In this document: positions 8,069 through 57,840 of the stretch, one piece after another | Position numbering within the stretch: the first letter of the stretch is position 1 | How the letters are laid out: every line of letters begins with the position of its first letter | DNA from: Bacteroidaceae bacterium | GTDB lineage: Bacteria; Bacteroidota; Bacteroidia; Bacteroidales; Bacteroidaceae | Length of the DNA stretch: 64,000 nucleotides | Direction: 5' to 3' | Assembly (NCBI GenBank): GCA_017615125.1 | Contig: JAGAAS010000042.1 | Coordinates: 1 to 64,000, forward strand | Made by a program: the position numbers and the translations under genes | The notes under the pieces: model-generated | The model's input: only the letters and a program-made list of their open reading frames with translations | Database searches by the model: none | Told to the model about the DNA's origin: nothing

Positions 8069-8425
8069 AGGGAGCAGCTGGCCTGTAAGCCGGGTTCTGT
8101 ACCCCCGCGGGGGGCGTCTGTCATCTATCTCGGTCCGCTGTCGCCAACGGACTCTAGCGTTCTACCCTCCGGCTCGGACGGGCCGCCCTCGAGCGCCGGT
8201 ATACATGAACTTGCAACTCCCAAGACGCACAGCCTGCCGATCGCTCGGCAGCTGGTGAGCTCTTGCCTCACCTTCTCACCCTTACCCCGCGGGGGGCGGT
8301 TGTTTTCTTCTGCGTTACTCTGCCGTCGCCGACAGCTTCCCGTTAAGAAGTGGGATGCCCTGTGTTGCCCGGACTTTCCTCCTGCCCCCGAAGGGCAAGC
8401 GACAGACCGTCCAACTGCTTCCAAT
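8069..8425 (-). ncRNA. rnpB: RNase P RNA (class A)
   Basis: Read on the reverse strand, the region shows the conserved blocks of RNase P RNA: GAGGAAAGTCCGGGC near the 5' end, GGGTAAGGGTGAGAAGG and CAAGAGCTCACC, ACCGGCGCTCGAGG, GATAGATGACAGAC, and a 3' end with CAGAACCCGGCTTACAGGCC that pairs with the 5' end region. It is the catalytic RNA that trims tRNA 5' ends. Ends are estimated to within a few bases; the 5' end is set by the promoter at 8430-8460, and a T-run follows the 3' end. Confidence 0.95.
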
Positions 8426-9147: not shown

Positions 9148-9182
9148 CCACTTTCAATTTTTTTATACTACCTTCGCGCCCT

Positions 9183-9420
9183 GAAGTGGTTTCGGAAGGG
9201 CACCCTCGTGCTGCCCCGATGAGTAAATTGGAATCCGGTGTGAATCCGGGACAGTACCTGCTGCTGTAAATCCTCCTTCGAACAGAAGGGAAGAAGTTTG
9301 TTGAAATCGCAACGCCACTGGTGCGGGAAACCGACTGGGAAGGCACAACAAACAGGGACAAGTCAGAAAACCAGCCACCGAGAAACAAGAACTGATTCCT
9401 GCCTGCAGGTGTACGGGCGA
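9183..9420 (+). promoter_or_regulatory. Cobalamin (adenosylcobalamin-class) riboswitch
   Basis: Conserved elements are visible in order: GGAATCCGGTGTGAATCCGG and GGACAGTACCTGCTGCTGTA (core and L5), GCCACTGG, CGGGAAACCGACTGGGAAGG, then the B12 box at 9361-9379 (AGTCAGAAAACCAGCCACC). A CCTGCCTGCAGG element at 9398-9409 can form the L13 hairpin that kisses L5 next to the start of the receptor gene at 9428. Binding of B12 derivatives normally shuts off the downstream import genes. A weak -7 (TACCTTCG, 9169-9176) sits just upstream. Confidence 0.93.
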
Positions 9421-39770: not shown

Positions 39771-40185
39771 GCCTACTTGGTACCTTGCCAAGCTGAGACA
39801 AGGTAGCGGCATCCTCAATGAATCGGCAACATTTCCCCTTCCCCGCTCCTACTCCGACAAAACCCACAACACGCTTCGCCCGCTCTTTCGTCCGATTCTC
39901 ACGCTTCGTCATCCGTTTCTTTTTCAGCGGGGGTCTATCAACGCGTTGTCACACGTCTATCAACGCGTTGGTAGACCTCGATCAACGCGTTGATAGACCC
40001 CAAAAGTCAAAGGAAAACGTCAGCATGCAAAAGAATATCAGCACAAATGCCGTCCCAAACGAAACGCAAAAAAGCGGAGCCTCTTTTCTGCACAAACAAA
40101 CAAAAACAGAAAGGAGTGAAAATCAACCTATTTGTTCACAGAACAGCACTTTTTGCAACATTTTCGTAAAAAAAAGCCGATAATG
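39771..40185. other. Long intergenic region before the leader-peptide gene
   Basis: No gene recognised. It contains the palindrome array at 39931-40000, flanked on the left by a T/C-rich stretch (39880-39925) whose six-frame translation resembles the flank of the second array at 57775, so the whole 39880-40020 part behaves like a dispersed element. The remainder (40021-40185) is A-rich without features. Confidence 0.6.
39931..40000 (+). repeat. Array of three CAACGCGTTG palindromes, 22-base period (array 1)
   Basis: CAACGCGTTG lies at 39939, 39961 and 39983, exactly 22 bases apart, within GGGTCTATC...GATAGACCC outer arms that are themselves complementary. The same design occurs at 57775-57840. 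Confidence 0.92.
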
Positions 40186-40216
40186 TTTGCATTTCGAAAA
40201 AACATGTCTACCTTTG
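40186..40216 (+). promoter_or_regulatory. Promoter of the leader peptide/asnB transcript
   Basis: TTTG (40186-40189), 19 bases, TACCTTTG (40209-40216): a perfect pair. Transcription would start about 75-80 bases before the leader ATG at 40300. Confidence 0.92.
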
Positions 40217-40299
40217 CACTCGGAAAAACAAGGCCGTTTTCGCCTGCATGACTGCGGCAAAAAGACTTTGTTTTCACCGCCCAACAAACAAGGAAGAAT

Positions 40300-40425
40300 A
40301 TGGTTGTCAAATCGAGCAAAGACTTCTCCTTGACCTCCGGCGCATACGGAAGCCAGAATTGGAATAAGAACCAGCAGCAGAATCAGCAGCAGGTTCTTAA
40401 TAATAATTCTATTAATAAGGTATAG
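40300..40425 (+). CDS. Gln/Asn-rich leader peptide of the asnB attenuator
   Basis: 41 codons, ATG at 40300 with AAGGAAG six bases upstream (a good Shine-Dalgarno, rare in this window) and TAG at 40423-40425. Of the last 23 residues (19-41), seven are Gln and eight are Asn: three Gln at codons 25-27, Asn28, three Gln at 29-31, three Asn at 34-36 and Asn39. It is the only reading frame between a perfect promoter and asparagine synthetase, and it is followed within 60 bases by a strong intrinsic terminator. This is the architecture of amino-acid attenuator leaders (as in his, leu, trp operons), here matched to glutamine and asparagine. No signal peptide or membrane segment. A free-standing functional peptide cannot be excluded. 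Confidence 0.75.
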   Translation: MVVKSSKDFSLTSGAYGSQNWNKNQQQNQQQVLNNNSINKV

Positions 40426-40513
40426 ACCGGGGTGTATGAATAAAAGATGGTTTTATTTATAAGGTAAATAAGAGAAAATGACCGGTTCGAAAGAATTGGT
40501 CATTTTTGTTTTT
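40426..40513 (+). promoter_or_regulatory. Putative transcription attenuator upstream of asnB
   Basis: Terminator: AAAATGACCGGTTC (40475-40488), GAAA tetraloop, GAATTGGTCATTTT (40493-40506), a 14-base stem with two G-U pairs, then TGTTTTT up to 40513. Competing structures: ACCGG at 40426-40430, right after the leader stop, can pair with CCGGT at 40482-40486 and break the terminator stem. A hairpin ATGAATAAAA/TTTTATTTAT (40436-40445/40451-40460) and an alternative TTATTTA/TAAATAA (40453-40459/40465-40471) lie between. A ribosome finishing the leader would cover 40426-40430 and favour termination; one stalled at Gln or Asn codons would leave it free. No other promoter is visible before asnB. Confidence 0.7.
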
Positions 40514-40532
40514 AGGAAAACAAGAAAAGATT

Positions 40533-42203
40533 ATGTGTGGATTCGTAGGAATTTTTAAGAAAGACGGAAGCGCGCACGTCATGCGCGAGAAAGCCCTGAA
40601 GATGTCGGCCCGTATCCGTCACAGAGGACCCGACTGGAGCGGAGTCTTCTGCTGCGACCGTTGCGTGCTGGCTCATGAGCGCCTGGCTATCGTCGATCCC
40701 CTCTCGGGGGGACAGCCTCTGTACTCCAAGGACCGCAATCTGGTGCTGGCAGTAAACGGGGAGATTTACAATCACCGAGACATTCGTAGAAAGTTGGAAG
40801 GGCGCTACGAATTTCAGACGGGCTCCGACTGTGAAGTCATCCTGGCCCTCTATCGCGAGAAGGGTATCGGCTTTATTGAAGACCTGAACGGCATCTTTGC
40901 CTTCGCCCTCTACGATGCAGCGCACGACGAGTTCCTGATTGCCCGCGATGCCGTAGGTGTTGTCCCTCTCTACATGGGACGGGACAACGACGGAACCATG
41001 TATGTAGCCAGCGAGCTGAAGGCGTTGGAAGGGATGTGCGACAGCTACGAAACGTTCCCTCCGGGACATTACTACAGCAGCCGAAAAGGTGAGCTGAAAC
41101 GCTGGTGGACACGCGACTGGATGACGAGCATACCCCAGTCGGAGCTGTCGTTCGACGAGTCAAAGGAAGCCATCCACGATGCTCTGGAAGCTGCCGTCAA
41201 GCGCCAGCTGATGAGCGACGTGCCTTTCGGCGTGCTCCTCTCGGGCGGGTTGGACAGCTCTGTCATCAGCGCTATCGTGAAGAAATTCGCTGCAAAGCGA
41301 ATCGAGACGGACAGCATTCACGACGCCTGGTGGCCCCAGATCCATTCCTTTGCGATTGGGCTGGAAGGGGCGCCCGACCTTGCAAAGGCACGCGAAGTTG
41401 CCGCACACATCGGCACCATTCATCACGAGGTGCACTACACCATTCAGGAAGGCTTGGATGCTCTGCGCGACGTGATCAGGTTTATTGAGTCCTACGATGT
41501 CACTACCGTCCGCGCAAGCACTCCTATGTATCTGCTGGCGCGTGTCATTCGGAGCATGGGCATCAAGATGGTACTGAGCGGAGAAGGAGCCGACGAAGTG
41601 TTCGGAGGATATCTCTACTTCCACAAGGCGCCTGACGCCAAAGCCTTCCACGAAGAAACGGTTCGTAAGCTCAGCAAACTGCACCTCTACGACTGTCTGC
41701 GCGCCAACAAATCGCTAATGGCCTGGGGCGTAGAAGGACGCGTTCCCTTCCTCGACAAGGAATTCCTGGATGTTGCAATGAACATCAACCCTGCTTACAA
41801 AATGTGTCAGGGACAAACAATTGAGAAACGCATCGTGCGCGAAGCCTTCAGCGACATGTTGCCCTCGAGCATCGTCTGGCGCCAGAAAGAGCAGTTCAGC
41901 GACGGTGTGGGATACAGATGGATAAACACGCTGAAAGCGATGACTTCTGCCGAAGTGAGCGACACGATGATGGAACACGCTGCCGAACGCTTCCCCATCA
42001 ACCCGCCCATGAACAAAGAGGAGTATTACTACCGCAGTATCTACGAGGAATACTACCCCAGCGAATCGGCAGCACTCAGCGTACCCAGCGTGCCAAGCAT
42101 TGCCTGCAGCACCGCAGAAGCGCTGGCGTGGGACGCTTCGTTTGCGAAACTCAACGACCCCAGCGGTAGAGCGGTAAAGGGCGTGCACGAACAAGCGTAC
42201 TGA
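40533..42203 (+). CDS. asnB: Asparagine synthetase B (glutamine-hydrolysing)
   Basis: 556 residues from ATG at 40533, chosen because the glutaminase nucleophile must be Cys2 (MCGFVGIF). The upstream frame to 40506 runs through the terminator and is rejected. N-terminal glutaminase domain (2-190) with RIRHRGPDWSG, HERLAIVDPLSGGQPL, NGEIYNH; synthetase domain from about 200 with the PP-loop LLSGGLDSSVIS, EGADEVFGGYLYF and GVEGRVPFLDKEFLD. It converts aspartate, ATP and glutamine to asparagine, glutamate and AMP. Transcription must pass the attenuator at 40426-40513. The next gene starts 22 bases later. Confidence 0.96.
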   Translation: MCGFVGIFKKDGSAHVMREKALKMSARIRHRGPDWSGVFCCDRCVLAHERLAIVDPLSGGQPLYSKDRNLVLAVNGEIYNHRDIRRKLEGRYEFQTGSDCEVILALYREKGIGFIEDLNGIFAFALYDAAHDEFLIARDAVGVVPLYMGRDNDGTMYVASELKALEGMCDSYETFPPGHYYSSRKGELKRWWTRDWMTSIPQSELSFDESKEAIHDALEAAVKRQLMSDVPFGVLLSGGLDSSVISAIVKKFAAKRIETDSIHDAWWPQIHSFAIGLEGAPDLAKAREVAAHIGTIHHEVHYTIQEGLDALRDVIRFIESYDVTTVRASTPMYLLARVIRSMGIKMVLSGEGADEVFGGYLYFHKAPDAKAFHEETVRKLSKLHLYDCLRANKSLMAWGVEGRVPFLDKEFLDVAMNINPAYKMCQGQTIEKRIVREAFSDMLPSSIVWRQKEQFSDGVGYRWINTLKAMTSAEVSDTMMEHAAERFPINPPMNKEEYYYRSIYEEYYPSESAALSVPSVPSIACSTAEALAWDASFAKLNDPSGRAVKGVHEQAY

Positions 42204-42225
42204 TGACCCAGAAAGATGATGTGTT

Positions 42226-44094
42226 ATGGAGCCATTGAAGCATGAATGTGGTGTGGCGATGATTCGCCTGCTCAAGCCTCTCAGATATTATAAGGAGAAG
42301 TACGGGACGTGGTTGTACGGCCTCAACAAGCTCTATCTGCTGATGGAAAAGCAGCATAACCGCGGGCAGGAAGGAGCTGGGCTGGCGTGCGTGAAGATGA
42401 ACGCCTGCGCAGGCGAAGAGTACATGTTCCGGGAGCGCGCCTTAGGAAGTAATGCTATTGCCGAGATATTCCAGGCTGCACAACAAGCATGTCTGAATCA
42501 AGGCAACGAGTTGCTTGAAGAAGAAAGCATGCCCTTCATCGGAGAGCTGTATATGGGGCATCTGCGCTATTCAACCACAGGGAAAAGCGGATTGACGTAC
42601 GTCCACCCCTTCATGCGTCGCAACAACTGGCGCGCCAAGAACCTGTGCCTTTGCGGAAACTTCAACCTAACCAACGTTGACGAGATATTTGCCGACATCA
42701 CCTCCAAAGGCCAGCATCCGCGCATCTACAGCGACACATATATCATGCTCGAGATGATGGGGCATCGGCTGGACCGAGAAAGCGAGCGGCTGTTCAAAGA
42801 AGCACAAGACAAGCATCTGGAGGGAACGGAAATCACCCGTTATATCGAAGAGAACATCAACATCTGCAATGTACTTCGCACTTCTACTCCCAGCTTCGAC
42901 GGGGGCTATGTTCTCTGCGGCATCACGGGCAGCGGAGAGATGTTTTCTATACGTGACCCTTGGGGAATACGCACTGCTTTCTGGTACAAGGACGATGAAG
43001 TGTTGGTTGTTGCATCCGAAAGGCCTGTCATACAAACCACCTTTGAACTGGAAGCACATCAAATCAACGAGCTCCAGCCGGGACAGGCTCTTACTGTGCA
43101 CCAGAACGGCTCTATAGCTCTGACACAGATACTTCCCGCCCACGAGCTGAAAGCTTGCTCCTTTGAGCGGATTTATTTCAGTCGAGGCTCAGACCAAGAC
43201 ATCTACCGCGAGCGAAAAGCCCTCGGAGAGCAACTGACAGCTCAAATCACGGAAGCTGTCGATGGCGATGTGGAGCACACCGTCTTCAGCTTTATCCCTA
43301 ACACCGCAGAAGTTGCTTTCTACGGCATGCTCGACGGATTCAAAAAGCAGCACAACGAGAACAAGGTAAATCAGCTTTATGCGCTCATACAAGACCATCA
43401 GCCTACGAAAGAAGAACTTCGAAGTATCCTGCATAATTATGTCCGCAGCGAGAAGGTTGCCATCAAAGACATCAAGTTGCGTACGTTCATCGCCGAAGGC
43501 AATTCGCGCAACGATTTAGCTGCGCACGTCTACGATATCACCTACGGCTCGTTGACGCCTTACGAAGACAACCTCGTGATTATCGACGACAGCATCGTTC
43601 GAGGGACCACATTAAGAGAGAGTATCCTAAGGATTTTGGACCGTCTCCATCCGAAAAAGATAGTTCTGGTAAGTTCATGTCCCCAGGTGCGATACCCCGA
43701 CTACTACGGAATCGACATGCCTCACATGGAGGAATTTATTGCCTTCCGCGCTGCCATCGAACTGCACATCGAACGGGGCTCGTGGCAGACAATTTCCAAC
43801 GTATATAAAAAATGTATAGCGCAAAGTGCCCTACCTGCCGCTGAAATGCGTAACTTTGTAACGGAAATCTATGCACCCTTCACACCCGAAGAGATTTCCA
43901 CAAAGATTGTCGAGATGCTGCGCCCGAAAAATATGACAACGCCTATCCAAATTGTGTACCAGTCGCTTGAAGGACTGCACCGTGCTTGCCCGCATCATCC
44001 GGGCGATTGGTATTTCAGCGGTAACTATCCGACGCCTGGCGGGGTGAAAATGATAAACAAAGCGTTCATAGATTATTATGAATCCATTCATTAA
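42226..44094 (+). CDS. PurF-family amidotransferase/phosphoribosyltransferase, long form
   Basis: 622 residues, longer than standard PurF (about 460-510). The glutaminase nucleophile would be Cys8 (MEPLKHECGVAMI, exposed after removal of a propeptide as in many PurF proteins), with KQHNRGQEGAGLA, LYMGHLRYSTTGKSG and SIRDPWGIRTAFW. The PRPP site VIIDDSIVRGTTLRESI is near residue 455. It presumably makes 5-phosphoribosylamine from PRPP and glutamine, the first purine step, but a second specialised paralog is possible given the insertions and the glutamine-gene context. Part of the asnB transcript; pyrG follows ten bases after its stop. Confidence 0.85.
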   Translation: MEPLKHECGVAMIRLLKPLRYYKEKYGTWLYGLNKLYLLMEKQHNRGQEGAGLACVKMNACAGEEYMFRERALGSNAIAEIFQAAQQACLNQGNELLEEESMPFIGELYMGHLRYSTTGKSGLTYVHPFMRRNNWRAKNLCLCGNFNLTNVDEIFADITSKGQHPRIYSDTYIMLEMMGHRLDRESERLFKEAQDKHLEGTEITRYIEENINICNVLRTSTPSFDGGYVLCGITGSGEMFSIRDPWGIRTAFWYKDDEVLVVASERPVIQTTFELEAHQINELQPGQALTVHQNGSIALTQILPAHELKACSFERIYFSRGSDQDIYRERKALGEQLTAQITEAVDGDVEHTVFSFIPNTAEVAFYGMLDGFKKQHNENKVNQLYALIQDHQPTKEELRSILHNYVRSEKVAIKDIKLRTFIAEGNSRNDLAAHVYDITYGSLTPYEDNLVIIDDSIVRGTTLRESILRILDRLHPKKIVLVSSCPQVRYPDYYGIDMPHMEEFIAFRAAIELHIERGSWQTISNVYKKCIAQSALPAAEMRNFVTEIYAPFTPEEISTKIVEMLRPKNMTTPIQIVYQSLEGLHRACPHHPGDWYFSGNYPTPGGVKMINKAFIDYYESIH

Positions 44095-44104
44095 AAGAAA
44101 GGAA

Positions 44105-45718
44105 ATGAAAACAAAGTATATATTTGTTACAGGAGGCGTAGCTTCGTCACTCGGCAAGGGAATCATATCTTCGTCAATTGGCAGGCTGATGATGTCGCGC
44201 GGCTTCAAGATTACCATCCAGAAGTTCGACCCTTACATCAACATAGATTCGGGTACGCTAAACCCTAACGAGCATGGGGAATGCTATGTGACAACAGACG
44301 GGCACGAGGCAGACTTGGACTTGGGTCACTACGAACGATTCCTCGGCATCCAGATGCACAAGGCAAACAACATTACTACAGGACGAATCTACAAAGCAGT
44401 TATTGAAAAAGAACGGCACGGTACCTATCTGGGACATACCATCCAAGTAGTTCCACATATCACAGACGAAATAAAACGTAACATCCGCCATTGGGAAGAA
44501 CTGAACGAAGACGAACGTCCAGATATGGTCATCGTAGAAATTGGCGGTACTGTGGGTGATATAGAAAGTCTTCCCTATATGGAAAGCATCCGTCAGCTGA
44601 AATGGGAGTTAGGCCAAGATGCCGTAAGCGTCCATCTCACCTATATTCCCTATCTGGCTGCCGCTGGCGAGCTAAAAACAAAGCCCACCCAGCACAGCGT
44701 GCAGAAACTGCAATCGTATGGAATCCAGCCTGACATCTTGGTTTTACGCACGGAGCATGAGCTGAGCAGAGGGCTGAAAGCCAAGACAGCGCTCTTCTGC
44801 AACGTTGCCGAGAATGCTGTTTTCCAAAGCATTGATGCTCCCAGCATCTATCAAGTTCCTATTCTCCTGCAGCAACAAGGTTTGGACTCTATTCTTCTTC
44901 TTAAAATGAGATTGAATCCCGATGAATTCCCTTCCGACCTGAAGGCTTGGAATGCCTTCCTCGCCAAGCGCGAAGCTTCCCATGAAGAAGTACACGTAGG
45001 ACTCGTTGGAAAATATGACTTACAAGATGCATACAAAAGCATTCATGAAGCAACCTCCCATGCAGCCACTTACAATGGACGCAAGCTAAAGATGCAATTC
45101 ATCAACAGCGAAGAAATCACGAGCCAAAACGTTGAGGAGAAACTGAAAGGAATGGATGCCATCATCATTGGTCCAGGTTTTGGGCAACGGGGCATAGAAG
45201 GTAAAATTATCGCTGCCAACTTTACCCGCACGCACGACATCCCCACGCTGGGCATCTGCTTAGGCATGCAGTGCATGGTGATAGAATTTGCACGCTCTGT
45301 GATAGGACTACAGGAGGCTAACTCACGAGAACTCAACCCCGACACGCCCCACCCTGTTATTGATATGATGGAAGAGCAGAAAAACATCGTCAACATGGGC
45401 GGCACCATGCGATTGGGTTCATATCGATGCGAAGTGCAACACGGAAGCAAAGCAGAACAAGTATATGGTTCCCAAGTCATCAGCGAGAGGCACAGACATC
45501 GTTACGAATTCAACAACACATATAAAAAAGCGTTTGAAGTAAACGGCATGCAATGTAGCGGCATCAACCCCGAAAACGACCTTGTGGAGATTGTTGAGAT
45601 TCCACAAAACAGATTCTACATCGGTGTACAATTCCATCCCGAATACAGTAGCTCGGTTTTGCATCCGCACCCCTTGTTTATGTCATTGATAACAACATCT
45701 ATTAATAAAAATAATTAA
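44105..45718 (+). CDS. pyrG: CTP synthase
   Basis: 537 residues from ATG at 44105 (AAAGGAA upstream; the frame from 44078 overlaps the previous gene's end). N-terminal synthase domain starts KYIFVTGGVASSLGKGIISSSIGRLM and has QKFDPYINIDSGTLNPNEHGE and VIVEIGGTVGDIESLP; the C-terminal class I glutaminase has GICLGMQCMVIEFAR (nucleophile Cys) and FHPEYSS (His-Glu). It aminates UTP to CTP using glutamine. Follows the PurF-family gene by ten bases and precedes glutamine synthetase by five, so the four genes are surely one transcript. Confidence 0.97.
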   Translation: MKTKYIFVTGGVASSLGKGIISSSIGRLMMSRGFKITIQKFDPYINIDSGTLNPNEHGECYVTTDGHEADLDLGHYERFLGIQMHKANNITTGRIYKAVIEKERHGTYLGHTIQVVPHITDEIKRNIRHWEELNEDERPDMVIVEIGGTVGDIESLPYMESIRQLKWELGQDAVSVHLTYIPYLAAAGELKTKPTQHSVQKLQSYGIQPDILVLRTEHELSRGLKAKTALFCNVAENAVFQSIDAPSIYQVPILLQQQGLDSILLLKMRLNPDEFPSDLKAWNAFLAKREASHEEVHVGLVGKYDLQDAYKSIHEATSHAATYNGRKLKMQFINSEEITSQNVEEKLKGMDAIIIGPGFGQRGIEGKIIAANFTRTHDIPTLGICLGMQCMVIEFARSVIGLQEANSRELNPDTPHPVIDMMEEQKNIVNMGGTMRLGSYRCEVQHGSKAEQVYGSQVISERHRHRYEFNNTYKKAFEVNGMQCSGINPENDLVEIVEIPQNRFYIGVQFHPEYSSSVLHPHPLFMSLITTSINKNN

Positions 45719-45723
45719 AGGTT

Positions 45724-47910
45724 ATGAGCGAATTAAGATTTGATGTAGTGAAGAATGCTTTCAAGAAGAAAGCACTTCCCGTAGAAGCTCCCGAGGCACG
45801 CCCCACAGAGTATTTCGGCGAACTGGTATTCAATCGCGACAAAATGCAGAAATACCTTGACGCAAACACCTACAATGCGCTTATCAACTGCATTGAAGGG
45901 GGCACGGCGCTTGATCGTTCCACAGCAGACAAAGTGGCTACCGGCATGAAAACCTGGGCAATGGAGCACGGAGTGACGCATATCACGCATTGGTTCCAGC
46001 CCCTCACGGAAGGAACAGCCGAGAAACACGACTCGTTCATCGAATACGATCAGAAGACTAGCATCACAGAAACGTTCGACGGACGTTCGCTCATCCAGCA
46101 AGAACCCGATGCCAGTTCGTTTCCCAACGGAGGCATCCGAGCTACCTTCGAGGCACGCGGATACACAGCATGGGATCCTACGTCTCCTGTCTTTATCCAG
46201 GATGACACTTTGTGTATTCCTACCGTCTTCATTGCCTACACGGGGGAAGCCCTTGACTACAAGACGCCGCTGAAACGCGCCCTGAAGGCAGTGAATGATG
46301 CTGCCGTATCGGTATGTCAACTCTTCGATCCCAATGTCAAAAAAGTATACTCCTATCTTGGCTGGGAACAGGAATACTTCCTTGTTGACGAGGATCTTTA
46401 TGCCGCACGCCCCGACTTGATGCTGACAGGGCGCACGCTAATGGGGCATGCATCGTCAAAGAATCAGCAGCTCGACGATCATTATTTTGGCGCCATACCG
46501 AGCAGAGTGGCTGCCTTTATGAGAGAACTGGAGTTTGCAGGATTCCGTCTTGGCATTCCTCTGAAGACACGCCACAACGAAGTGGCACCCAATCAGTTTG
46601 AGTTGGCCCCAATCTATGGTGAAACGAACCTTTCCAATGATCAGAACCAACTTATCATGAATGAAATGAACACCATTGCCCGCAAGCACGGATTTGTGGT
46701 GCTGCTTCACGAAAAGCCCTTCAACGGCATCAACGGAAGCGGTAAGCACAACAACTGGTCTCTTGGCACCGACACGGGCGTGGGACTGCTCTCACCAGGA
46801 AAAGACGCCAAAAGCAATTTGCAATTTGTCACTTTCTTCGTCAACGTTTTGGCTGCCGTGCAGAAGCACAACGCCCTGCTAAAAGCATCTATCGCCAGCG
46901 CCACCAACGCCCATCGTCTGGGAGCCAACGAGGCTCCTCCAGCCATCATCTCCGCCTTCCTTGGAAGGACGATGACAGAGGTTTTGCACAAGTTACTTGA
47001 ACTTCCCTCTGACACGCCCATTGAAATAGCCGGTAAAAAAGGAGCTAAAGTGGGCCTTGTGGAGATTCCTGAAATATTTATCGACAACACCGACAGGAAC
47101 CGCACCTCGCCTTTTGCATTTACTGGAAACCGTTTTGAATTCCGCGCCATAGGAAGCAGCGCCAACTGCGCAGGAGCTATGACAACGCTGAATGCAGCTG
47201 TTGCAGATCAACTGGTTCAATTCAAAGCCGATGTTGACAAAGAACTGGCAAAAGGCAAAGCGCTTAATGTCGCCATTATGGATACGCTCAAGCCTATCAT
47301 CGCTTCCATTCTTGACACCGTTTGCTTCGACGGAAACGGCTATAGCGAGGAATGGAAAATGGAAGCACAACGTCGAGGACTTGACACAGAGACAAGCGTG
47401 CCGGAAATGATAAAGAAATTTACCTCTCCCGATTCCGTAGCGATGTTCAAACGCACAGGAGTATATTCCGAGAAGGAACTCGCAGCTCGTAACGAAGTGA
47501 AATGGGAAACATACACCAAAAAGGTTCAGATCGAAGCACGCGTTATGGGACGTATGGCTATCAACCACATCATCCCGGCAGCACTTGCCTACAAGAACAA
47601 GCTGCTCAGCAACATCCAAATGACAAAGGATGTCTTCCCAGAAGAGTATCAGACAATGGCTGCTACCGAGATATCAACGGTAAAAACCATCACCAAATAC
47701 ATTGCTGACTTGACATCGATGGTTGACGATATGGTGAATGCCCGAAAGGCAGCCAACAAGATAGAGGATGAGTACCAGAAAGCATGTGCTTATCACGACA
47801 TCGCCGAGAGTCTCTTTGCTATCCGGCGTCCTATTGATAAGCTGGAAGAGATTGTCGACAATGACCTCTGGCCCTTACCTAAATATCGCGAATTGCTTTT
47901 CATCAACTAA
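45724..47910 (+). CDS. glnN: Glutamine synthetase type III
   Basis: 728 residues, the size of GSIII (GSI is about 450-470). Shows THWFQPLTEGTAEKHDSF, the type III region with SSFPNGGIRATFEARGYTAWDP, the catalytic GWEQEYFLVDEDL, KTRHNEVAPNQFELAPIYGETNLSNDQNQLIMNEM, NGINGSGKHNNWSLGT and FAFTGNRFEFRAIGSS. It makes glutamine from glutamate, ammonia and ATP. It is the glutamine source for the amidotransferases encoded beside it; if the attenuator controls this transcript, glutamine shortage would raise its synthesis. A strong hairpin follows. Confidence 0.96.
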   Translation: MSELRFDVVKNAFKKKALPVEAPEARPTEYFGELVFNRDKMQKYLDANTYNALINCIEGGTALDRSTADKVATGMKTWAMEHGVTHITHWFQPLTEGTAEKHDSFIEYDQKTSITETFDGRSLIQQEPDASSFPNGGIRATFEARGYTAWDPTSPVFIQDDTLCIPTVFIAYTGEALDYKTPLKRALKAVNDAAVSVCQLFDPNVKKVYSYLGWEQEYFLVDEDLYAARPDLMLTGRTLMGHASSKNQQLDDHYFGAIPSRVAAFMRELEFAGFRLGIPLKTRHNEVAPNQFELAPIYGETNLSNDQNQLIMNEMNTIARKHGFVVLLHEKPFNGINGSGKHNNWSLGTDTGVGLLSPGKDAKSNLQFVTFFVNVLAAVQKHNALLKASIASATNAHRLGANEAPPAIISAFLGRTMTEVLHKLLELPSDTPIEIAGKKGAKVGLVEIPEIFIDNTDRNRTSPFAFTGNRFEFRAIGSSANCAGAMTTLNAAVADQLVQFKADVDKELAKGKALNVAIMDTLKPIIASILDTVCFDGNGYSEEWKMEAQRRGLDTETSVPEMIKKFTSPDSVAMFKRTGVYSEKELAARNEVKWETYTKKVQIEARVMGRMAINHIIPAALAYKNKLLSNIQMTKDVFPEEYQTMAATEISTVKTITKYIADLTSMVDDMVNARKAANKIEDEYQKACAYHDIAESLFAIRRPIDKLEEIVDNDLWPLPKYRELLFIN

Positions 47911-47927
47911 TTCATTATTAATCCAAT

Positions 47928-47990
47928 CCTCTGTCTGAATTCTCTATTCCAATTCTTTTCAAAACTGAACCCAGACAGAGGTTTTCCGAC
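47928..47990 (+). terminator. Terminator after glutamine synthetase
   Basis: CCTCTGTCTG (47928-47937) pairs perfectly with CAGACAGAGG (47972-47981), with a 34-base loop, followed by TTTT. Confidence 0.6.
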
Positions 47991-48001
47991 ATTTTGTTTT
48001 T

Positions 48002-48844
48002 ATGCCCCAGATAGCTTTCACGAAAATGCACGGTCTTGGCAACGATTATATCTATGTCAATACAATGCAATATCCTATTGCCAACCCAGCCCTTGCCTCG
48101 CGACTCTGGAGCGACAGGCACTTGGGAATTGGCTCAGACGGACTTATCCTGATAGGTTCTTCGGATAAAGCCGACTTCAGCATGCGCATTTTCAACGCAG
48201 ATGGCTCTGAGGCATTAATGTGTGGAAACGGAGCCCGTTGCGTGGGGAAATATGTTTTCGAGAAAGGTTTGACAAATAAAACAATCCTTACACTTGACAC
48301 GTTATCGGGAATAAAAACGCTGGAGCTATCTTTAAATAAAGAAGGAGAGGTGGAAACTGTGACTGTAGGTATGGGAATAGCAAGCCCCTTGCCTGTAGTT
48401 CGGAACGGAAAGACTGAACTTCTCGTAAACGAAACCCTTTCCGTTGAAGGACAATCTTTTCCTGCCACAGCTATTGACATAGGAAATCCCCATCTGGTAC
48501 TCTTCGTAAACGATATCGCATCTGTCAACATTCCCCTTGTCGGAAACCAGCTTGAAAACAGCCCGATGTTTCCCAATCGTGCAAACATAGAGTTTGCCCA
48601 GATAATTGACACGCATCACATCCGCATGCGCGTTTGGGAACGAGGAAGCGGCATCACCCAGGCTTGCGGGACAGGAGCCTGCGCTACTGCCGTAGCTGCT
48701 GTAATGAACAGGCTGACAGACCCTTCGCATTGTGAAATAATAATGGACGGAGGAGCGTTAAGCATCGCGTGGAACCCCGAGACTTCTCAGGTAAAAATGA
48801 CAGGAACAGCTACTACCGTGTTTGAAGGAACCATCAACATCTGA
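48002..48844 (+). CDS. dapF: Diaminopimelate epimerase
   Basis: 280 residues. Both catalytic cysteines are visible: [16 protein letters not shown] near residue 73 and [16 protein letters not shown] near 222, plus [13 protein letters not shown] at the N-terminus and IGSDGLIL. It interconverts LL- and meso-diaminopimelate for lysine and peptidoglycan synthesis. Its partner LL-diaminopimelate aminotransferase is encoded 11 bases downstream, so the two form a lysine/cell-wall pair. Confidence 0.97.
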
Positions 48845-48854
48845 CTTCTTTTAT

Positions 48855-50075
48855 ATGCCCATCTTAAACGAAAACTTCCTCAACCTGAGCCAGCGATATC
48901 TTTTTCAGGAGATAGCACGAAGGACTGCCGACTATCGCACTTCGCATCCTGATGCCGATATCATCAGTATGGGAATCGGTGATGTCTCACTTCCTTTGGC
49001 GCCAGCTGTCATTGATGCTATGCATCGAGCCGTAGATGAGGAAGCCCGACAGAAAACGTTTCGCGGATATGGGCCAGAACGAGGCTATCTCTTTCTAAGA
49101 GAGGCCATTGCAAACGGCGACTATGCAAGTCGCGGAATAGACATCTCGCCTGATGAGATTTTCGTAAACGACGGAGCAAAGAGCGACACAGGAAACATCG
49201 GGGATCTTTTCTCCGCAGACAACAAAGTCGGCATCGCCGATCCTGTCTACCCCGTATATGTCGATACGAATCTGATGGGAGGACGCCCTATCTACTATAT
49301 TCCCTGCAACGAAAAGAACTCTTTCACGGGCGATATTCCTCAGATAAAGCTCGATATCGTCTACCTCTGTTTCCCAAACAATCCTACCGGAGCTGTTATC
49401 ACCAAAGAAAAGCTCCAGATGTGGGTGGATTATGCTCTCGACAACGACTGCATCATCATGTACGACTCGGCATATAAGGCTTTTATCCGAGACGACTCTC
49501 TCCCCCATTCTATCTACGAGATTCCTGAAGCCCGAAAGTGCGCAATCGAGTTCCGAAGTTTCTCGAAGACTGCCGGCTTCACAGGCATCAGATGCGGCTA
49601 TACCGTCATTCCTGACGAAATCAGGCTGACAACGAAAACAGGCGAAAGAATCCAGCTCAACAAATGGTGGGAACGACGGCAAGGATGCAAATTCAACGGA
49701 GCATCGTACATCTCCCAACGAGGTGCCGAAGCAATCTACACGCCCGAAGGACTCGCCCAGACACAAGCTCAAACAGACTATTATCTTCATACCGCAAGCC
49801 TCATACGCCAATGCCTGGAATCGCTGGGGCTGCATCCACAAGGAGGGACAAACGCTCCCTACATCTGGGCAAAGACGCCCGAAGGGATGAGCTCATGGGA
49901 ATTCTTTGATTTCCTGTTAGATAAGGCTCAAGTTGTCATCACGCCTGGCGCGGGATTCGGAAAAGCAGGCGAAGGATGGTTTCGTATGACATCTTTCACA
50001 AGCAAGGAACAAACCGAATGCGCCTTAACGCGTTTCAAGTCGTGTTTCCCGGGAAAAAATTTGCAGAACCGATGA
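48855..50075 (+). CDS. dapL: LL-diaminopimelate aminotransferase
   Basis: 406 residues from ATG at 48855. Fold type I PLP enzyme with the Schiff-base Lys in EFRSFSKTAGFTGIRCGY, plus FPNNPTGAVITKE, YDSAYKAFI and DADIISMGIGDVSLPL. It transaminates tetrahydrodipicolinate directly to LL-diaminopimelate, bypassing succinylated or acetylated intermediates; DapL is the usual route in Bacteroidetes. Located 11 bases after dapF. Confidence 0.96.
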   Translation: MPILNENFLNLSQRYLFQEIARRTADYRTSHPDADIISMGIGDVSLPLAPAVIDAMHRAVDEEARQKTFRGYGPERGYLFLREAIANGDYASRGIDISPDEIFVNDGAKSDTGNIGDLFSADNKVGIADPVYPVYVDTNLMGGRPIYYIPCNEKNSFTGDIPQIKLDIVYLCFPNNPTGAVITKEKLQMWVDYALDNDCIIMYDSAYKAFIRDDSLPHSIYEIPEARKCAIEFRSFSKTAGFTGIRCGYTVIPDEIRLTTKTGERIQLNKWWERRQGCKFNGASYISQRGAEAIYTPEGLAQTQAQTDYYLHTASLIRQCLESLGLHPQGGTNAPYIWAKTPEGMSSWEFFDFLLDKAQVVITPGAGFGKAGEGWFRMTSFTSKEQTECALTRFKSCFPGKNLQNR

Positions 50076-50143
50076 GGCAGCAAGAGCAACATGATGCTTG
50101 CATCGATGCTGCCACATCGCGCGTCAGAAGAAGAGCATAAAAT

Positions 50144-50213
50144 ATGAAGAAGGGAAAAATTTTTTTTCTTTCTACATCTCGCCGTATGAAGAAAGAAAAA
50201 AAATTTTTTCTCC
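50144..50213 (+). repeat. Purine-rich dispersed repeat, copy B
   Basis: Contains TTCTTTCTACATCTCGCCGT, ATG, AAGAAAGAAAAAAAATTTTTTC. Core CTCGCCGTATGAAGAAAGAA is shared with copies A, C and D. It lies in the 295-base gap between dapL and carA, which otherwise holds only the carA promoter. Confidence 0.85.
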
Positions 50214-50287
50214 TAGCATATTTCAGCCTTCCGAAATCGGCCTTTGGGAGTTCTTTGACTTAGGATGAAAAATAAAACAAGTTTTAT

Positions 50288-57774: not shown

Positions 57775-57840
57775 GTTTATCAACGCGTTGATAAAGGTGT
57801 CTCAACGCGTTGATAAAGGTGTCCCAACGCGTTGATAAAC
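57775..57840 (-). repeat. Array of three CAACGCGTTG palindromes, 22-base period (array 2)
   Basis: CAACGCGTTG at 57781, 57803 and 57825, exactly 22 bases apart, with GGTTTATC and GATAAACC outer arms. The flanks match array 1 in inverted orientation. It lies between two convergent genes (57749-57974); no other feature is seen there. Confidence 0.92.

Follow-up and report, generated by a model that had tools for sequence, protein, structure and literature searches.

A probable glutamine- and asparagine-reading leader attenuator repeated before glutamine and ammonium genes of Bacteroidales

The his, trp, leu and phe leader attenuators combine a short open reading frame (ORF) rich in codons for the operon's amino acid with competing hairpins, and the glnA RNA motif is a glutamine riboswitch class. 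To our knowledge, the sensing of glutamine and nitrogen in Bacteroidales is poorly known. Here we describe a leader in a 64,000-nucleotide stretch from a Bacteroidaceae bacterium (contig JAGAAS010000042.1, positions 1 to 64,000; hereafter, the window), which lies upstream of the asparagine synthase gene asnB and encodes a peptide rich in glutamine and asparagine (Gln/Asn, or Q/N). Comparison with related loci and RNA folding indicate that it very probably attenuates transcription by way of the translating ribosome, as his and trp leaders do, with charged Gln-tRNA and Asn-tRNA as the signals, and that it is one copy of a regulon. Like the his, trp, leu and phe leaders, it has a codon-rich ORF, a hairpin over the codons, a terminator with a competing antiterminator and a promoter 5′ of the leader. 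Unlike them, it concerns Gln and Asn jointly, occurs in Bacteroidales, and is a single leader type on a dispersed regulon that includes transport and glutamine consumers. It also differs from the glnA motif, a structured RNA, in that the Q/N-coding ORF is the likely sensor and there is no Rfam match.

Strong clues of leader-peptide attenuation before amino-acid operons have been described in Flavobacterium psychrophilum (PMC9723704), and 5′ regions of Bacteroides thetaiotaomicron contain short ORFs reminiscent of leader peptides (PMC7366714). Judged from these passages, leader attenuation in Bacteroidetes is not new in kind; both papers report attenuation-type short 5′ ORFs, as found here, but their main-text passages on the subject name no Gln/Asn leader. 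According to passages of an older study, which adds a histidine leader of bacilli, leader systems had then been shown only in Proteobacteria and Actinobacteria, apart from ermC (PMC2965389). An earlier note on this stretch of DNA knew of no attenuator keyed to both Gln and Asn, and we found no description of a leader attenuator for Gln or for Asn among the matches listed in openly accessible papers, supplements aside. Attenuation by this mechanism is established, whereas a leader specific for Gln/Asn, and a regulon of such leaders, appear not to have been described.

The leader region of the window contains the following elements.

40186 to 40216, + strand: Bacteroidetes-type promoter, TTTG-N19-TACCTTTG, from a motif scan of the window
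40300 to 40425, + strand: leader peptide ORF, MVVKSSKDFSLTSGAYGSQNWNKNQQQNQQQVLNNNSINKV, 41 codons plus stop, read from the sequence (ATG at 40300, TAG at 40423-40425)
40365 to 40399, + strand: hairpin H1 within the Gln/Asn codons, TAAGAACC (40365-40372) with GGTTCTTA (40392-40399), from folding, covariation and a synonymous-codon null
40425 to 40430, + strand: putative antiterminator segment GACCGG, at the leader stop codon and just past it, from comparison of loci and folding; within chance in the window alone
40435 to 40461, + strand: A/T-rich hairpin between leader and terminator, predicted by folding to lie inside the antiterminator loop
40476 to 40513, + strand: intrinsic terminator with a T-run to 40513, from sequence and folding (core stem 40476-40488/40493-40505)
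40482 to 40487, + strand: competitor segment CCGGTT in the terminator 5′ arm, from complementarity to 40425-40430

The promoter, the leader ORF and the terminator had been recognized in the earlier note, and each was borne out. The window has 11 exact matches to TTTG-N17..23-TAnnTTTG, this promoter among them, where 0.68 were expected. A Shine-Dalgarno-like AAGGAAG lies 5′ of the ORF, and the last 23 residues of the peptide (19-41) contain seven Gln and eight Asn. The terminator stem spans 40474-40507 around a GAAA loop, with 15 pairs, 13 of them in the core; its folding energy of -17.9 kcal/mol (z -6.3) was reached by none of 200 shuffles. The note had also stated that no other promoter precedes asnB, and 40426-40533 indeed contains no match to the Bacteroidetes promoter. 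Since the same motif has no match anywhere in 40217-50287, asnB and the PurF-like gene, pyrG and glutamine synthetase gene behind it probably depend on the promoter at 40186-40216. A sigma-70-type scan gave a single + strand site, 40330-40359, at chance level.

The check proposed in the note, a search of related Bacteroidales for a Q/N-rich frame and terminator 5′ of asnB with covarying stems, was positive, with modest covariation of the antiterminator. A leader and terminator were present in 22 of 80 loci encoding AsnB relatives (the best 80 of 228 from a scan of named genome contigs). At 14 of these, the Q/N-rich short ORF and terminator lie directly 5′ of asnB (L088, L111, L117, L122, L124, L125, L134, L135, L138, L144, L145, L148, L150 and L152), and three of the 14 (L125, L135 and L150) have an additional leader before glnK. 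At the other eight, the leader in the available flank precedes a different gene: that for type III glutamine synthetase (GSIII) in L087, glnK-amtB in L142, amtB in L091, L118, L120, L126 and L129 (with GSIII also preceded by a leader in L118), and a gene for an outer-membrane-like protein in L133. Two complete Q/N leader-terminator units stand in tandem 5′ of glnK-amtB in L142 (3062-3259 and 3268-3484). Runs of NNNQ and QNQ recur in the homologous leaders.

Leaders were also found within the genus of the window. In genome G005, a homologous leader, MVDKKDSRCSFTSGKSGRKNNDKGQQRQQQAPAYIITC, and a terminator nearly identical to that of the window lie directly 5′ of a glutamine synthetase gene whose product is 91% identical to the window's; further leaders stand before glnK and asnB in G003 and G016 and before GSIII in G009. 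With the window peptide as single query against 101 relatives, 31 genomes gave matches at E ≤1. Two foreign matches were inspected: L025, in G005, is a real homologue before GSIII, and L003 looked like chance. For later tests we assembled 71 ORF-plus-terminator matches, for which a terminator was a listing requirement, dropped four by eye (L088:585, L123, L134:5345 and L248:3580, antisense to a real leader) and added L223 and L087 by hand. This gave 69 instances, many of them closely related; the frameshifted L144 was excluded from the collapsed-set and permutation tests of the antiterminator, the search for H1 and the synonymous-codon null (68 loci). TAnnTTTG occurs 5′ of the leader in 61 of the 69, with TnTG 17-23 nucleotides (nt) before it in 36. 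Between the leader stop codon and 120 nt beyond the terminator it occurs in only two, and the downstream gene thus seems to rely on readthrough.

This comparison supports the note's proposal of an attenuator for the asnB cluster, which was nonetheless too narrow, as leaders also precede glnK-amtB, pyrG, glmS, purF, GSIII and amtB. A hidden Markov model (HMM) built from 13 peptides of asnB, glnK and GSIII leaders, without information on neighboring genes, gave 55 matches at E ≤0.01 in 27 of 399 family genomes. Ten of the 55 match rows are identical to a training peptide (seven asnB, three glnK); the pyrG, glmS and purF leaders were outside the training set. A frameshift splits one leader into two of these matches, and the number of leaders is therefore 54. 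The next gene is glnK in 24, asnB in 19, pyrG in four, glmS in four and purF in one. Conservation of the peptide outside attenuation contexts, which the note had named as a possible refutation, was looked for here: 52 of the 54 leaders directly precede glnK-amtB, asnB, pyrG, glmS or purF, and the remaining two are followed by a gene for an outer-membrane-like protein and by a contig end. One representative each of glnK, amtB, pyrG, glmS and purF was identified by Pfam or NCBIfam and the others by shared N-terminal sequence; the downstream gene is itself interrupted in two loci (asnB in L211, glnK in L258).

An RNA pattern that is independent of the Q/N run, CCAGYC-N20..50-GGCTGGT-N3..13-AYCRGCC, was run on 32 genomes, mostly picked for having leaders. 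It matched 22 times in 21 genomes, with no match to the reversed control, and some of these places are shared with the HMM count. The genes that follow are glmS (10), pyrG (5), asnB (2), GSIII (2), amtB (1), one for an outer-membrane-like protein and one unresolved, placing 20 of the 22 matches before glmS, pyrG, asnB, GSIII or amtB. A similar pattern in 324 genomes of the order gave eight matches and its reversed control six. Two of the eight are leaders, both in G287 (before amtB and GSIII); the other six, without a T-run or Q/N ORF, are unrelated. The HMM matched 11 of 393 order genomes at E ≤0.1, and none of the nine foreign matches inspected, out of ten, resembled such a leader, indicating that the system is unevenly spread across the order. 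By these searches its distribution is patchy, comprising several genera of Bacteroidaceae, another family (f19) and a number of uncultured Bacteroidales. Across the loci compared, the order of promoter, Q/N ORF, H1, complementary segment, terminator and glutamine gene recurs at ammonium and glutamine genes. In gut and rumen Bacteroidales, such leaders stand before genes for making, importing or spending glutamine, and they probably turn these genes on under Gln/Asn shortage.

The two exclusive folds proposed in the earlier note depend on pairing of ACCGG (40426-40430) with CCGGT (40482-40486). The complementarity is present and, with the final G of the stop codon and a G-U pair counted, amounts to six pairs (40425-40430 with 40482-40487). 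When 40420-40488 is folded, GACCGG:CCGGTT is the structure of lowest energy (z -2.5), a stability reached by 4 of 200 shuffles. The window by itself does not take the pairing beyond chance, and its support comes from relatives. We scored the best ungapped helix between the leader end and the terminator 5′ arm in the 69 instances. In 40, the window not among them, the helix had p <0.05 against shuffles of the same stretch. In a collapsed set of 23 dissimilar loci, helix scores averaged 17.1, compared to 12.5 in dinucleotide shuffles (z 9.2; 0/300). The pairing core is CCAG/CTGG in most loci, CCGG/CTGG (with one G-U) in the commonest glnK leaders, and CCGG/CCGG in the window, its relative G005 and L199, which lies before purF in another genus. 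Terminators with GACTGGTCAA pair with TTGACCAG, and those with AGGCTGG pair with CCAGYC(T). The segment is coded as T-S-R, S-S-R, D-Q-R or D-R-S (for example, ACC AGT CGG or GAC CAG CGG) and lies past the stop codon in the window, L223 and L087. Since it occurs in varying frames or beyond the stop codon, selection apparently acts on the RNA. A hairpin, P1, with the antiterminator segment in its loop (a possible pseudoknot) had p ≤0.05 in 11 of 57 loci; with p 0.46 in the window, the idea was dropped there, and the arrangement is suggestive in some groups of loci.

Hairpin H1, which the earlier note did not mention, has 8 base pairs (bp) in the window and folds at -13.1 kcal/mol (z -5.9; 0 of 200 shuffles as stable). 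A corresponding 8-position stem, NNNGAACC...GGTTCNNN, lies in the Q/N run of 54 of 68 loci and is fully paired in 14. Its arms vary, being TCAGAACC/GGTTCTGA in L142 and L248 and GCTGAACC/GGTTCAGT in L227 and L266. Among 18 distinct hairpins, chosen by best pairing around GAACC, double-sided changes occur at three of the eight pairs, and 7 of the 18 rows are unpaired at one of them. The covariation score is 0.168, compared to 0.057 in shuffled alignments (0/500) and at most 0.037 with the register slid. This alignment favors structure, because the hairpins were picked by best pairing; a synonymous-codon null, in which the peptide is fixed, is free of such choice. By this null, the window folds at -18.7 compared to -9.5 kcal/mol (p 0.003), and across 21 dissimilar leaders the real sequences fold better than recoded versions (mean z -1.34; p <0.05 in 7 of 21). 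In Q-N-Q context the Asn codon is AAC in 48 of 65 cases, compared to 72 of 575 elsewhere in the leaders (68 leaders, relatives included). H1 is probably the pause, or 1:2, hairpin.

By sequence, the locus has an ORF between the promoter and the first gene, clustered Gln/Asn codons, an intrinsic terminator and H1 over the codons. A putative exclusive antiterminator segment, which a ribosome at the stop codon would mask, is seen across the loci, with a modest permutation result and, for the window alone, p about 0.12. With Gln and Asn plentiful, the ribosome would reach the stop codon and cover the antiterminator segment; the terminator would then form and transcription would end near 40513. With charged Gln-tRNA or Asn-tRNA scarce, the ribosome would stall in the Q/N run and open H1, leaving GACCGG (40425-40430) free to pair with CCGGTT (40482-40487) ahead of synthesis of the terminator 3′ arm. 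Once the antiterminator had formed, RNA polymerase would continue into asnB, the PurF-like gene, pyrG and the glutamine synthetase gene. On the established his/trp model we infer that stalling at Gln/Asn codons frees the segment and completion of the leader masks it. As AsnB takes Gln as amide donor, a shortage of Gln or Asn may bring the other. In some relatives the GAACCAG codons are likewise able to pair with the terminator arm, and they may act as another antiterminator segment.

Several results weigh against an attenuator of this design. The leaders of L124 and L144 are frameshifted. No leader was found, at the thresholds used, in 58 of the 80 AsnB loci, including nearly all of the closest; some of these 58 flanks end at contig ends, and the upstream flank of L074, which encodes the closest AsnB relative, is just 319 nt long. 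No H1 stem was recognized in 14 of 68 loci, and 40 of the 54 stems recognized have one or two unpaired positions. The 6-bp antiterminator match of the window, taken alone, is not beyond chance (p 0.125 and 0.123). The stretch of Q/N codons taken as a control likewise matches the terminator arm more often than shuffles do (z 5.3), apparently because of its AACCAG codons. Permutations comparing matched with mismatched partners, with segments re-selected each time, gave 612/20000 for 61 distinct loci and 1557/20000 for the 23 collapsed loci, a modest excess since nearly all loci have one common motif; they supersede an earlier result of 5/5000, which was biased in that segments had been chosen against their own partners. 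Without the 3′ arm, the antiterminator is in the minimum-energy fold of only 8 of 21 leader units folded, the window included. The full-length RNA prefers the terminator in all 21, and the switch would therefore have to be kinetic.

Some leaders share more than a Q/N run. The motif [AT]YNCL[SF]N[QK]MNDK[QL]N precedes the run in two genera, before differing targets and with many synonymous codon changes. The leaders concerned are L256, L263, L265 and L296 (glmS/pyrG) and, in the window's genus, L227, L266, L267 and L305 (asnB or GSIII where read). On the codons compared, the motif is peptide-level conservation beyond what codon counting explains.

Such conservation, 5′ of the Q/N run in glmS, pyrG, asnB and GSIII leaders of two genera, would be expected of a nascent-chain arrest peptide that responds in the ribosomal tunnel to glutamine or another signal and not to empty A-sites. 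However, neither the window leader nor the 12 asnB, glnK and GSIII leaders aligned with it contain the motif, the Q/N run being what these leaders have in common, and we consider an arrest-peptide sensor unlikely. In some leaders the stretch [AT]YNCL[SF]N[QK]MNDK, whose amino acids are kept while synonymous codons change, could also belong to a functional Q/N-rich small protein, the terminator just ending its own short transcript. We find this very hard to credit: the C-terminal part differs among leaders in frame, length and composition, whereas the RNA segment CCRG is kept even beyond the stop codon; codon choice favors RNA structure; and the leaders sit before one functional gene set whose members, with TAnnTTTG past the leader stop codon in only 2 of 69 loci, seem to depend on readthrough.

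The kinds of target gene recall the cyanobacterial glnA motif, which, according to passages of its description, controls genes for PII, glutamine synthetase and ammonium transporters (PMC2864571). This speaks for a T-box or a riboswitch that binds a metabolite, the ORF being incidental. Yet neither the leader of the window nor those of 14 related loci matched an Rfam family at gathering score, and the conserved structure lies within the coding run. With Rfam models including those for cis-regulatory leaders, the T-box and glnA RNA, the only matches at gathering score were to RNase P RNA, tRNA and cobalamin RNA, all elsewhere. We rejected both the riboswitch and the T-box, which appear extremely improbable, because of the absent Rfam matches.

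If the leader is an attenuator that reads Gln and Asn codons, the repertoire of leader attenuation would gain two amino acids, and a single leader type would be dispersed across transport, synthesis and consumption of one metabolite. Its copies would cover ammonium uptake (glnK-amtB), glutamine synthesis (GSIII) and the large consumers (asnB, pyrG, glmS and purF). It is conceivable, though we would not yet call it probable, that the lineage senses glutamine mainly through these leaders: a single type of attenuator, acting in cis and coupled to translation, would coordinate nitrogen assimilation in place of a dedicated regulatory protein, with the conserved nascent-chain motif as a second input in some copies. 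A Gln/Asn-codon leader repeated over a regulon would be a concrete, testable sensor, and the Q/N ORF together with the GGCTGGT terminator could be used to predict nitrogen-responsive genes.

Four genes lie behind the leader in the window.

40533 to 42203, + strand: asnB, asparagine synthase B (glutamine-hydrolysing), first gene after the attenuator, from gene-family searches
42226 to 44094, + strand: PurF-like gene (TIGR01134 at 133.9 bits, below the 350-bit cutoff)
44078 to 45718, + strand: pyrG, CTP synthase (glutamine-hydrolysing), likely start near 44105, from gene-family searches
45724 to 47910, + strand: type III glutamine synthetase gene (glnN; Pfam GSIII_N at 253.9 bits)

The PurF-like gene had no Pfam match at 1e-10 and has a match at E ≤1e-100 in 241 of 295 order genomes; perhaps it represents a distinct conserved family of phosphoribosyltransferase-like proteins.

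Three proteins of about 230-250 residues (L216:826-1548, L133:1157-1909 and L125:2859-3551) read as secreted or outer-membrane-like by sequence. The protein of L216 had no match in Pfam (1e-10) or NCBIfam (1e-5) and that of L133 none in NCBIfam. In L125 the gene for such a protein is close to amtB/glnK, and in two loci it follows a Q/N leader directly; by eye, similar proteins come after amtB in L125, L135 and L142.

Elsewhere in the window, at 39938-39993 and 57780-57835, the near-palindrome (T)CAACGCGTTG(A) is repeated three times at 22-bp intervals. The genome of the window has 72 occurrences of the pattern AACGCGTT-N12..16-AACGCGTT on each strand (it is strand-symmetric), with none in reversed controls; these repeats may be an intergenic family or an array of operators. 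A cobalamin riboswitch (9181-9393) and an RNase P RNA (8070-8418), both identified with Rfam, are ordinary.

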